IMG/VR virus record: IMGVR_UViG_3300018790_000009
Span: 1-23,577 of that record
DNA from: a virus
Reading direction: 5' to 3' (one strand)
DNA: 23,577 nt
Shown here: one piece after another, positions 3,485 to 14,276 of the stretch
Layout of the letters: the number at the start of each line of letters is the position of its first letter
Numbering within the stretch: the stretch's first letter is position 1
Made by a program: the position numbers and the translations under genes
Notes under the pieces: model-generated
What the model saw: only the letters and a program-made list of their open reading frames with translations
Told to the model about the DNA's origin: nothing
The model's database searches: none

Positions 3485-3507
3485 AAAAAAAACCCGCTCA
3501 TGGCGGG
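3485..3507 (-). terminator. Rho-independent terminator, leftward
   Basis: CCCGC/GCGGG with a five-base loop is followed on the minus strand by eight T. It lies 19 bases after the stop of the membrane protein gene 3526-3930. Confidence 0.85.
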
Positions 3508-3525
3508 CGCGCGGGGCGTTGTGTG

Positions 3526-3930
3526 TCAGCGGTGTTTCAGCAAGTCGATCAACCGTTCGCGTTCGGCAGTCATGGCCGCAGGGTCGGTAAAAACGGCCTG
3601 ATTGAGCGCATCAGGCGCAGAGCCGCTTTTCTCTGCTTCCTTGGTGCATTGCAGGGCCTTGCGCAAGCGGGCGGCCTGGATGCGCCCGGCGCGGCGGTAG
3701 AGCAAATCCCAATCGCTCTCGCTGATGTCGGCAATGCAAGAGCAGTGCGCGCCGCGCATGCGAATGAGGCGGCTGCGCACCTGGTCGGCGATGGCGTTGT
3801 ACTCGTTGCGCCGATCCCGTCCGATGGCCAGGCGGTGGCCAAGAATGAACCCGATCAAGCCAGTAACCAAAGGGGCGGCAAGCTGGACAACCGGACTACG
3901 CAGCAGCTCCTGGAAGCTCTCTTGCTCCAT
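3526..3930 (-). CDS. Small single-pass membrane protein, unknown function
   Basis: This 134-residue leftward gene starts at ATG 3930 after AAAAAGGAAATCACACA. Residues ~14-36 (VVQLAAPLVTGLIGFILG) are one transmembrane helix. The rest is a charged, helical cytoplasmic domain containing RRNEYNAIADQVRSRLIRMR, a CSCIADISESDWDLLYRRAG stretch, and a final helix ERERLIDLLKHR. A terminator follows it. It lies downstream of the repressor, nuclease and zinc-ribbon genes on the same strand, so it is probably expressed in the lysogen. A small membrane protein in this place is a common layout for superinfection exclusion or conversion genes; that is inference. Confidence 0.8.
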   Translation of the reverse strand: MEQESFQELLRSPVVQLAAPLVTGLIGFILGHRLAIGRDRRNEYNAIADQVRSRLIRMRGAHCSCIADISESDWDLLYRRAGRIQAARLRKALQCTKEAEKSGSAPDALNQAVFTDPAAMTAERERLIDLLKHR

Positions 3931-4027: not shown

Positions 4028-4342
4028 CTACCGTTCAACAAGGCGCCGCGACTTGCGGCACTCCTTCACATCCACCAGCGTCTTAAACCGGTGGTCCTCT
4101 TTGGTGATCCACTGCATGTTGCTGGGCCGATCCTCGCCGCCCGCGCATAGCGGCGTCACATGATCCACCTCCCAGCCCGGGCAGGCCCCGCGCTTGAGTC
4201 CGGTGACCGGGCAGGGGTTCTCATTGCGGAACGCCCGCACCTGGGCCTGGTCGCGCGGGATCTTTGCGAAGGTGGGCAGGGTCAGGAGTAGGGCGGCCAG
4301 TAGGGCAGCTACTTGCGCGCGTCCGATTCCATCTTTTCGCAT
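4028..4342 (-). CDS. Exported HNH endonuclease
   Basis: The start at ATG 4342 gives 104 residues. Residues 1-26 form a signal peptide (MRKDGIGRAQVAALLAALLL, then TLPTFA), so the mature protein should be periplasmic. The HNH core follows: CPVTGLKRGACPG, then EVDHVTPLCAGGEDRPSNMQW with the catalytic D-H, the central Asn, and a downstream DHRFK supplying the last His. Three further Cys could form disulphides or bind zinc. The start lies inside the preceding zinc-ribbon gene (34-base overlap) and has no ribosome site, so translation is probably coupled. The family of small secreted HNH proteins with the VDH-PLCAGG-NMQW signature is widespread in proteobacteria, but its role is unknown to me. Restriction of incoming DNA in the periplasm is a hypothesis. 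Confidence 0.8.
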   Translation of the reverse strand: MRKDGIGRAQVAALLAALLLTLPTFAKIPRDQAQVRAFRNENPCPVTGLKRGACPGWEVDHVTPLCAGGEDRPSNMQWITKEDHRFKTLVDVKECRKSRRLVER

Positions 4343-4692
4343 GTGCTGGCAATGAATCTCGCTGTGTCTGGGTCGTTGGATTTCTTCCCAAAATCCTTCC
4401 AACACAGCTCAATGGCCGACTGCTGCGCTGACTTGGCCTTGCCTTGTGGCGTGTTGCCAGAGCAAGACCCAATGAGCACCAGCAGCGCAAAGCCACCAGC
4501 GGGCACGCCCAGCGCCCACTTCCACCAGCTCGACCCACCACTCTTTGGCGGGTTCATCACTGGTGGCGGCATGTCCTGGTAGTAGCGCCCGACCTTCGGC
4601 GCTTCGCTTGCCACTGGCGCGCCGCAGTGTGGGCAGGCCGCCGCCTTGTCGCTAATCTCCTTGCCGCATTCGGCGCATGCAATCAGTGCCAT
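4309..4692 (-). CDS. Zinc-ribbon membrane protein
   Basis: ATG 4692 follows a GGAGGATTG ribosome site. The 127-residue protein starts with a zinc ribbon (Cys6, Cys9, Cys20, Cys23: CAECGKEIS…CPHCGAP), then a Pro-rich linker, one transmembrane helix at ~55-78 (WWKWALGVPAGGFALLVLIG), and a hydrophilic C-terminal domain with a Cys pair that ends STCEKMESDARK. With one membrane segment the zinc ribbon would face the cytoplasm and the C-terminal domain the periplasm, where the overlapping downstream gene's HNH nuclease also goes. It begins eleven bases after the repressor stop, so it should be made in lysogens with the repressor. Function unknown. Confidence 0.82.
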   Translation of the reverse strand: MALIACAECGKEISDKAAACPHCGAPVASEAPKVGRYYQDMPPPVMNPPKSGGSSWWKWALGVPAGGFALLVLIGSCSGNTPQGKAKSAQQSAIELCWKDFGKKSNDPDTARFIASTCEKMESDARK

Positions 4693-4702
4693 CAATCCTC
4701 CG

Positions 4703-5320
4703 TTATCCGTCTTCCCATTTCCCCAGCACCGTGCCCAGGATGTGAAACTTCTCCCGGATGGGCTCGTGGGATGGATTCAGCGGCTGCAGCCATTGGCGGC
4801 CGTCCTCGTTCTTGTAGACCTTGAACGTCACTTCGTCGGTGCCATCAAGGCAGGCCACCACCCGATCTCCGTTGCTGGGGTTCTTGCGCTCTGGGTCCAC
4901 GAAGATGTAGCAGCCCTCGGGGTAGGTCCTGCTGTTGCCGCTGGGCGCCGTCATGGAGTCGCCGCGCACGCGCAGAGCAAACGTGCTGCCGCTGTGGCTG
5001 ACGGGGCAATCCATCCAGCGGTCGGCCTGGCCTGGCAGGTGTGGATCTGCAGCGTTGCACCACTCACCGGCCTGCACCCAGGAAATCAACGGCACCTTGC
5101 CACGCAAGTCTGGGCCTGGCTCTGTATTGGCGACGCCCTCAAGCGGAAGCGGGTAGCCAGTCAGGGCTGAAACGCGCTTCATCTGCTCGAAGCTGGGCTT
5201 GTGTCGCCCATTTTCCCAGCCGGAGACATTGCCTTTCGACATCTCCAGTTTTTCGGCCAATCCGTCCTGCGTCAGCTGCGCGTGCTTGCGGGCCGCCCGG
5301 ACCCATTCATTCGTGCTCAT
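4703..5320 (-). CDS. cI: CI-type repressor, HTH plus S24 peptidase
   Basis: This 205-residue leftward repressor maintains lysogeny by binding the switch operators. Residues ~4-60 are an HTH_3 domain (LTQDGLAEKLEMSKGNVSGW, recognition helix near KGNVSGWENG). Residues ~75-205 are a LexA-like S24 domain: cleavage site Ala84-Gly85 (SWVQAGEW), catalytic Ser122 (RGDSM) and Lys167 (VTFKVYK). RecA-stimulated self-cleavage and SOS induction follow from the family. Start ATG 5320 fits the HTH length. The bases before it (TTTACATTTCCTCC) hold no ribosome site, so a leaderless message like lambda PRM is likely. Longer in-frame starts run through the divergent regulator and are rejected. The zinc-ribbon and HNH genes follow directly. 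Confidence 0.93.
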   Translation of the reverse strand: MSTNEWVRAARKHAQLTQDGLAEKLEMSKGNVSGWENGRHKPSFEQMKRVSALTGYPLPLEGVANTEPGPDLRGKVPLISWVQAGEWCNAADPHLPGQADRWMDCPVSHSGSTFALRVRGDSMTAPSGNSRTYPEGCYIFVDPERKNPSNGDRVVACLDGTDEVTFKVYKNEDGRQWLQPLNPSHEPIREKFHILGTVLGKWEDG

Positions 5321-5423: not shown

Positions 5424-5684
5424 ATGCACCCGATCGACAAAGCCGCCGACATCATCGGCTCACAAACCGCACTGGCGGCAGTGCTGGGCGTCAGCAAGGG
5501 CGCCGTCAGCCAGTGGAAAGACGAAGACCGCCGTGTTCCTGCCGCCCATTGCGTGGCGATTGAGCAGCAAACCAAAGGCGCCGTCACCCGCCGCGACCTG
5601 CGCCCCGACGACTGGCACCTGATTTGGCCCGAGCTGGCCAAGCCCGCCCGCAAAGCCAAGCACTCGGAGGCCGCCCATGGATAA
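5424..5684 (+). CDS. Cro-like regulator, YdaS family HTH
   Basis: This 86-residue protein is the first gene of the rightward early operon, divergent from the repressor. Residues ~3-60 are a helix-turn-helix of the YdaS/Cro type: AADIIGSQTALAAVLGVSKG is followed by AVSQWKDEDRRVPAAHC, the usual YdaS pattern of recognition helix plus R-V-P-A. RRDLRPDDWHLIWPEL is the characteristic end. It should bind switch operators and oppose the repressor. The C-terminal tail is Lys/Ala-rich and probably disordered. The stop is followed without gap by an opposing gene. Confidence 0.88.
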   Translation: MHPIDKAADIIGSQTALAAVLGVSKGAVSQWKDEDRRVPAAHCVAIEQQTKGAVTRRDLRPDDWHLIWPELAKPARKAKHSEAAHG

Positions 5685-12978: not shown

Positions 12979-13986
12979 ATGACAGCTGTCGAAGATTCTA
13001 CGTCTACAAAGACCTGCCCGAAGTGCGGCGAAAGCAAGCCGGCCACTTTGGAGTTTTATTACGCCAGGAAATCTCGGCTGCAGTCGCACTGCAAGACGTG
13101 CACGGCAGCGGCCAAAGCGGCCAAGGGGATTGCAGACAATCCAGAGTATCACCAGGCCAAGCAAGATCTATTGCATGGCTTGAAGCATTGCGTCGGCTGC
13201 TCATGCACGAAGCCGCTTGCGGAGTTCTACAAGAAGGCGAAATCTGTCACCACGCTATGTAGGCCATGCCAGCTTGAGGCGCAGTCAAAGAAGCGGCTGG
13301 ATAAAAGCCCGGCTCTGGCGCAGAGGCGGAAGCTGGAGATGCGCGGGGAGAAGCAGTGCTCTTGTTGCCTAGCAATCAAGGCCGCGACTGCAGAGCACTT
13401 CTACATTGACCGCGGACGATGCACATCTAGATGCATCGCATGCTGCCTTGCCTATCGAAAGAGCTACAGAGAAACAAACCCTGAGTTGGTGAAAGAACAA
13501 CTCAAGGAGTGGGCGAAGAAGCACAAGAAATACGTGGCCGACAAGCGGAGTGAGTGGGCCAAAAAGAACGCTGCTACACGCAAAGCCTACAACGATGCGT
13601 ACTACGTACGAAACAAGCAGACCTTCATCAATGGCAATAGTCGGCGGTCCAAAGCCAGGAGAAAGACCGATCCTGTGTTCGCCATGACGTGTCGCATCAG
13701 ATCCGCCGTAGGTGACGCATTTAGGCGAATGGGCTACACGAAGCGTTCAAAGACGCAAGCGATATTGGGCTGTAGCTGGATGGAGTTCAAGACTCACATC
13801 GAGCGGCAGTTTGTGAAAGGCATGCATTGGGGTAACAGGTCGGCGTGGCACATTGACCACATCATCCCGATTGCAACCGCCATCACAGAAGACGATGTGG
13901 TGCGGCTTAACCACTTCACTAATTTGCGCCCCATGTGGGCACTTGACAATATACGCAAGGGCGCAGAGATCACATCCTTGCTCTGA
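12979..13986 (+). CDS. Zinc-ribbon HNH nuclease, homing type
   Basis: This 335-residue protein starts with three similar zinc modules: CPKCGESKP…CKTC (~13-42), CVGCSCTKPLAEFYKK…CRPC (~73-98) and CSCCLAIKAATAEHFYIDR…CIACC (~129-158). A long charged helix rich in Lys follows (~165-225). The C-terminal ~100 residues are an HNH domain: AWHIDHIIPIATAITEDD, then LNHFTNLRPMWALDN with the central Asn and R-P-M-W-A. That domain is typical of phage free-standing nucleases. Base composition is visibly more AT-rich than its neighbours and a 9-bp repeat flanks it, so it was probably acquired. It may cut near its own insertion site or at cos. Confidence 0.85.
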   Translation: MTAVEDSTSTKTCPKCGESKPATLEFYYARKSRLQSHCKTCTAAAKAAKGIADNPEYHQAKQDLLHGLKHCVGCSCTKPLAEFYKKAKSVTTLCRPCQLEAQSKKRLDKSPALAQRRKLEMRGEKQCSCCLAIKAATAEHFYIDRGRCTSRCIACCLAYRKSYRETNPELVKEQLKEWAKKHKKYVADKRSEWAKKNAATRKAYNDAYYVRNKQTFINGNSRRSKARRKTDPVFAMTCRIRSAVGDAFRRMGYTKRSKTQAILGCSWMEFKTHIERQFVKGMHWGNRSAWHIDHIIPIATAITEDDVVRLNHFTNLRPMWALDNIRKGAEITSLL

Positions 13987-13994: not shown

Positions 13995-14276
13995 ATGGCC
14001 TACGACAACAGTGATGGTCGTCTGCGGGGTAGGAAGCTCCAAGCGACCAGGCTGCGCATTTGGTCGAGCGACCCGCACTGCGCCATGTGCCGCAAGCTGC
14101 TGGCCTATCCCCATGGGTTCGAGCTGGACCACAAGCAAGCGCTGCACAAGGATGGCAGCAACGATGACGAGAACATGCAGGTGCTTTGCCCTCCTTGCCA
14201 CCAGGTGAAGACGGCGCAGGACATGGGGTTCAAGGAGCGGGCCAAGTTCGATGCCGATGGGCGCGTGCTCTGGTAG
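13995..14276 (+). CDS. HNH endonuclease, packaging-associated type
   Basis: A 93-residue HNH protein: RLRGRKLQATRLRIWSSDPH, CAMC, FELDHKQALHKDGSNDDENM, LCPPCHQVKTAQDMG and the conserved end FDADGRVLW. The two C-x-x-C pairs hold zinc; D-H, the Asn of D-D-E-N and the last His are catalytic. HNH proteins next to terminase genes help cos cleavage in HK97-type phages, and this gene has that position. The expected N-terminal ~30 residues may be the separate ORF at 12796-12909. Confidence 0.88.
   Translation: MAYDNSDGRLRGRKLQATRLRIWSSDPHCAMCRKLLAYPHGFELDHKQALHKDGSNDDENMQVLCPPCHQVKTAQDMGFKERAKFDADGRVLW

Follow-up and report, generated by a model that had tools for sequence, protein, structure and literature searches.

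What two small overlapping genes placed directly behind a phage repressor do for the phage or for its host is the question raised by this locus. The window, the whole stretch of DNA that was analysed, is a virus record of 23,577 bases; its first 10.7 kb were checked and are identical to part of a 44,113-base IMG/VR contig (L017/G001). Leftwards from a divergent regulator, the minus-strand features run in the order cI, zinc-ribbon gene, HNH gene, third gene and hairpin. In the entries below, L026 is a related locus in an Acidovorax assembly.

5424-5684, plus strand: Cro/YdaS-type regulator, divergent from cI across the switch region (PF15943, E 2.9e-23; PF14549, E 8.3e-11).
4703-5320, minus strand: cI-type repressor of 205 aa with HTH_3 and S24 peptidase domains (PF01381; PF00717, E 4.4e-24; phrog_4, E 4e-38).
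4309-4692, minus strand: zinc-ribbon, single-helix membrane protein of 127 aa (PF13240, 29.1 bits; phrog_32667 for the C-terminal domain), with a Shine-Dalgarno sequence, GGAGG.
4309-4342, minus strand: 34-nt overlap of the two genes, the second start being without a Shine-Dalgarno sequence; an overlap of the same length occurs in L026 despite replaced DNA.
4028-4342, minus strand: putative exported HNH nuclease of 104 aa, with a signal peptide at about residues 1-26 and a mature HNH domain at residues 30-104 (Pfam, PHROGs, structural model and homologues).
3526-3930, minus strand: third operon gene; its 134-aa product has a membrane helix near the N-terminus and no PHROGs match better than phrog_13469 (E 0.031); an unrelated gene takes its place in L026.
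3492-3508, minus strand: intrinsic-terminator-like hairpin with a T run, closing the apparent cI operon (consensus match only).

The initial annotation described two overlapping same-strand genes directly behind cI, the first encoding a zinc ribbon with one membrane helix and the second an HNH nuclease with a signal peptide and no ribosome site, and this description stands. The coordinates and reading frames that it gave for both genes were correct on recheck, as was the overlap; the zinc ribbon scores above its cut-off and is followed by a predicted helix, and the second protein joins a PHROGs match and a confident HNH model to a signal-peptide-like N-terminus. A strong ribosome site, GGAGG, precedes the ATG of the zinc-ribbon gene, and no Shine-Dalgarno-like run lies upstream of the HNH start, a layout from which we infer that the two genes are probably translationally coupled. 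A terminator scan between cI and 3616 found no other minus-strand terminator-like site, and the site at 3616-3596 falls within the third gene; a single transcript running from cI as far as about 3490 is thus the simplest reading of the layout. A simple promoter scan found no minus-strand promoter upstream of cI. The next minus-strand gene past the operon, at 2005-2700, encodes a GDSL/SGNH hydrolase (PF13472) whose start resembles a lipobox (ALVGCG); a promoter-like site with an 11/12 match (TTGACA-16-TATACT) lies on the same strand at 3380-3353, and the gene is possibly a second lysogenic-conversion gene. Elsewhere in the window, the major capsid gene (PF05065; 18975-20453, plus strand) encodes a very hydrophobic stretch, residues 8-26, ahead of a scaffold-like region, its start being uncertain.

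HNH genes are frequent in phages, and the protein encoded at 4028-4342 clearly matches phrog_333 (E 3.5e-8). Its membership of the HNH group rests on fold and motif, because its score against PF01844 (19.3 bits) falls under the curated cut-off of 21.4. The protein shares the HNH fold and motif with phrog_333 and PF01844, which are both broad families tied neither to export nor to a repressor. An AlphaFold model made with 61 aligned relatives reached a mean pLDDT of 91, with about 97 in the mature domain (blocks of 95-98), and shows the beta-beta-alpha order (strands at 57-61 and 76-80, helix at 81-103). Its closest solved fold is the Cas8-HNH nuclease domain (Z 6.8 over 61 residues, 1.2 A), followed by ZRANB3, the GVE2 phage HNH protein, McrA and the Gme nicking enzymes; extracellular teneurins are also among the matches, with Z of about 3.5. 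An HNH (beta-beta-alpha metal) fold carrying the catalytic DH...N motif is confirmed at the level of this predicted structure.

Thirteen residues are invariant in the 61 aligned members: R30, F38, C44, P45, C54, D60, H61, L65, G68, G69, N75, W78 and K87. The third H of the HNH motif, at position 84, is histidine in 36 members and alanine, serine or glycine in 25; position 88 is aspartate in exactly the 25 that lack H84 and threonine in the 36 that have it, with zero exceptions. Lying one helical turn apart, the two positions read as exchanging a metal ligand, and so perfect a swap between H84/T88 and (A,S,G)84/D88 suggests that the active site is kept under selection. Four cysteines are also retained in the family (44, 54, 66 or 67, and 95); they are not spaced as the CxxC pairs of zinc-binding HNH proteins are, and would fit disulfides formed in an oxidising compartment. 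Judged from the alignment, the predicted exported HNH proteins are a coherent family. In two relatives (L033, 728-1084; L034, 5836-6228) an additional segment, GCH...YHCH, separates the signal peptide from the nuclease domain. The window holds another HNH-type gene in the usual packaging position beside the terminase small subunit (13995-14276, plus strand) and, at 12979-13986 on the plus strand, a gene with an endonuclease VII match and a Lar-like restriction-alleviation match. A packaging or homing role was considered for the gene at 4028-4342 as well and was rejected in view of its signal-peptide-like start and its position behind cI, the HNH gene on the terminase side being a separate one.

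The N-terminus of the HNH protein is built like a signal peptide, with a positively charged start (MRKDGIGR), a hydrophobic core (AALLAALLLTL) and an end (PTFA) that includes an AXA-like site, TFA, after which about 78 residues remain. A hydrophobic N-terminal core was found in 59-61 of the 61 homologues as against 8-12% of the other genes in the same loci, a contrast that is somewhat inflated since start codons of the HNH genes were chosen partly for hydrophobicity. The hydrophobic stretch is in frame with, and adjoins, the HNH domain in all of the relatives. These comparisons support an export signal that is probably conserved across the family, and the location of the HNH protein would be periplasmic.

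Relatives of the HNH protein were drawn from viral contigs and from bacterial genomes. An S24-type repressor lies directly upstream of the HNH gene and on the same strand in 24 of the 25 viral records that contain any S24 repressor, at a distance of 3-1042 nt (measured from the end of the repressor to the HNH match, the last four values being calculated by hand from contig ranges). By chance, a position picked at random in a 40-kb record would show this layout about 1% of the time. The exported HNH is sporadic in bacterial genomes, with 13 occurrences among 201 genomes of one family, as expected of mobile cargo, and there again it usually lies behind a repressor-like gene. The order cI-HNH is, on comparison of gene neighbourhoods, a general habit of temperate phages, recurring in dozens of unrelated viruses, and not one case. 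Expression together with the repressor, which had been proposed for the pair, gains support from this retained linkage, with cotranscription read from the layout. Matches to the exported HNH in three bacterial genomes (L155, L158 and L161) cross in-frame stops, and at least that in L161 looks decayed.

The zinc-ribbon protein is less uniform a companion. PF13240 matches its residues 6-27 (gathering cut-off 25 bits) as an N-terminal CxxC...CxxC ribbon, one helix is predicted at residues 60-78, and the C-terminal domain described by phrog_32667 carries two conserved cysteines (CW...TCE) and is probably outside the cytoplasm. The model of this protein is poor (mean pLDDT 61) and confident only for the ribbon and the C-terminal helices. 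That the two genes form a repressor-linked pair had been suggested, and a search of homologue neighbourhoods upheld this in part: the HNH is the constant member, but the partner varies and pairing is not obligate. Zinc-ribbon membrane partners occur at about 10 of 68 HNH loci (about 15%), and also in L164; they also lie behind cI in three loci without any HNH (L112, L138 and L142), and their excess beside HNH over HNH-less cI genes is not significant (Fisher p 0.14). Two of the zinc-ribbon partners, those immediately ahead of HNH in L054 and L079, have a PF14373 Imm_superinfect domain (E 2.6e-17 and 2.1e-14) as their membrane part, and in two more loci the partner has a Rap1a domain (L005, E 6.2e-9; L123, E 5.4e-14). 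Many other HNH loci have a small lipoprotein or membrane protein between cI and HNH, or nothing, the HNH gene following straight after cI, and overlapping or abutting gene starts are found at many HNH loci. Because the partners vary and the zinc-ribbon excess is not significant, the slot behind cI is a shared position with recurring themes and not a fixed pair, and an obligate two-gene system is rejected.

The same slot was also sampled by cI instead of by HNH. Its cargo in other phages includes a staphylococcal-nuclease homologue, SNase (L101/L102, 5015-5506), a DarT ADP-ribosyltransferase (L129, 4678-5340), Rap1a with HNH (L123), zinc-ribbon membrane proteins and unknowns, and in Aeromonas phage LPM4 an Excalibur protein with a zinc-ribbon protein. 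Some repressor-linked cargo is unrelated to DNA entry, and position in the slot alone is no proof of exclusion. A second position bears on the partner. Its outer domain occurs as a stand-alone protein with one helix directly before the tape-measure gene in L018 (5947-6180), and as a shorter call in L019; Imm_superinfect-like proteins occupy the same pre-tape-measure position in L133, L134 and L135 (2953-3306), and this is the place of the HK97 exclusion gene gp15. Both gp15 and the partner are small one-helix membrane proteins, but gp15 has neither zinc ribbon nor nuclease, and homology between them was rejected, local alignment showing no sequence match with E up to 100.

T4 Imm, a small protein of the inner membrane, impedes the entry of phage DNA. 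In T4-infected E. coli the host endonuclease I degrades superinfecting DNA held outside the cytoplasm, which would be a close functional parallel to an Imm protein acting with a nuclease. The likeness to the present loci lies in the PF14373 domain of the L054 and L079 partners, which stand beside an exported HNH; the window's own partner differs in giving no match to PF14373 up to E 1. T4 Imm itself is not known to carry a zinc ribbon or to have a nuclease gene attached.

Comparison of the window with L026 reveals what amounts to a natural domain swap. The two are 96.7% identical over 5661-4610, a stretch that takes in cI and the first 27 codons of the zinc-ribbon gene. Beyond it L026 has other sequence for the rest of the partner, helix and outer domain alike, and for the HNH signal peptide; similarity returns with the mature HNH domain, at 4256-3997 (89%, with identity throughout the last 120 nt). 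The third gene is replaced too, and identity returns at 3507, that is at the terminator-like hairpin, continuing to 3289 at 96.8%. The overlap is 34 nt in both although the DNA there differs. Such a pattern, zinc ribbon and nuclease constant but membrane and outer parts exchangeable, would be expected if what the outer part recognises varies; plain mosaicism may also account for the exchange.

The reading that we prefer, and to which we give about an even chance of being right, is that the locus specifies a lysogenically expressed periplasmic DNase that cuts entering DNA and is assisted at the point of entry by the membrane partner. Produced from the cI transcript and then exported, the HNH protein would act in the lysogen's periplasm, cutting double-stranded DNA as it crosses the envelope. 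Superinfecting phage genomes would be the likeliest targets, at injection, transforming and other incoming DNA would be hit as well, and the chromosome of the lysogen would be spared by its compartment. The partner would span the inner membrane, its zinc ribbon facing the cytoplasm and its small Cys-paired domain the periplasm, and might slow or mark the entry site or keep the nuclease there. Gene order, the conserved coupling of HNH to cI, the conserved signal-peptide-like start, the HNH fold and the conserved catalytic residues are observed; cotranscription, periplasmic location, nuclease activity, the target DNA and every step assigned to the partner are putative. An envelope-exclusion role for HNH and partner fits the sequence comparisons because Imm-type partners are present at two loci, nuclease and defence cargo occurs in the same slot, and the partner's outer domain and Imm domains are found at the gp15 position.

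In where it would act, such an enzyme resembles SNIPE, a membrane-bound anti-phage nuclease that cuts phage DNA during injection and is an effective defence (PMC13190303). Both would be envelope nucleases distinguishing self from non-self by place and not by sequence, a property that is presumptive for the HNH of the window. SNIPE differs in that DUF4041 and a cytoplasmic GIY-YIG nuclease domain are united in a single membrane-anchored protein, whereas the window has a separate 104-aa exported HNH behind a prophage cI; Pfam matches of the two window proteins include neither DUF4041 nor GIY-YIG. The arrangement had been described as one that matches no named exclusion system, and this is still so after searches of PADLOC and of the literature, which turned up no named system of the same composition. 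A known anti-phage defence system was rejected on PADLOC matches that are weak and at domain level only (mREase_IV, E 0.0015; REase_II, E 0.007). The overlapping exclusion genes of Pseudomonas phage Fc02 were also set aside, as they lie upstream of the repressor, are described with no mention of HNH, and include Olg1, which is compared with DEDDh exonucleases. Among open-licence papers, no described system has an exported HNH linked to a repressor or to exclusion. Of what is already described, two kinds come closest, the periplasmic DNases of prophages and entry-exclusion membrane proteins.

The first of these kinds supports the alternative that survives best, namely that the exported DNase was selected mainly to block natural transformation or plasmid and conjugative DNA, protecting the lineage from other mobile elements, phage exclusion being incidental and the partner independent cargo. 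In Campylobacter, the prophages or integrated elements CJIE1, CJIE2 and CJIE4 encode periplasmic or extracellular DNases that strongly lower natural transformation (PMC3995785). There, as proposed here, an exported DNase given to the host by a prophage or integrated element reduces uptake of foreign DNA; the passages that describe these enzymes call them Dns or DNase, not HNH, report no repressor linkage and mention no membrane partner, and the comparison is one of described role only (PMC3995785). That HNH often occurs without a zinc-ribbon partner, and that the unrelated SNase occupies the slot in L101/L102, would suit this account, whereas the Imm-domain partners of L054 and L079, together with the nature of the slot as a place for entry proteins, speak for phage entry, and we regard it as doubtful.

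The variability of the partner bears also on the view that the genes are two unrelated morons, the membrane protein alone excluding in the manner of Imm or gp15 and the HNH being a scavenging or housekeeping exported nuclease. Each gene does occur without the other, and their association is statistically not significant; yet the 34-nt overlap survives sequence exchange in L026, starts overlap or abut in many loci, and the linkage of HNH to cI is tighter than a scavenging enzyme would predict, which makes this account unlikely. A toxin-immunity arrangement, in which non-lysogens are attacked by HNH set free as a bacteriocin-like toxin while the producer is shielded by the partner, could draw on the Rap1a immunity-domain partners of L005 and L123 and on the HNH fold common to colicin and pyocin DNases. 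It is very unlikely, however, for a mature protein of 78 aa without a receptor-binding or translocation domain; moreover, a periplasmic DNase is no threat to the producer's chromosome, and most partners are not immunity-like. Least probable of all is that the HNH is not exported, being either an ordinary packaging or homing enzyme with a signal-peptide look-alike or a decayed, non-functional copy: other such genes in the window (12979-13986 and 13995-14276) and decayed copies in bacterial genomes lend it something, but the nearly universal hydrophobic N-terminus (59-61 of 61), the conserved active site with its paired substitutions and the position behind cI speak against it.

The periplasmic DNase acting on entering DNA may also belong to something broader. 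It is possible, and we offer it tentatively, that the cI operons of proteobacterial prophages hold an unnamed and widespread class of systems for excluding DNA during its entry through the periplasm. The exported HNH would be their constant part, and the membrane component (zinc-ribbon, Imm-type, Rap1a-type or lipoprotein) would be exchangeable, serving to recognise or stall particular entry machineries, so that recombination at domain borders would retune which phages are excluded.

What is new here is the exported HNH family, its conserved linkage to cI and the residue swap between positions 84 and 88. If the preferred reading is true, many prophages equip their hosts with a periplasmic nuclease that is made whenever the repressor is and attacks any incoming DNA, and do so at the stage of entry, when only location sets self DNA apart from non-self, as SNIPE has recently shown for a membrane nuclease. 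It would explain the regular companionship of small exported HNH genes with cI and would tie superinfection exclusion to blocked transformation, in a compact two-gene module that could be tested in laboratory strains.
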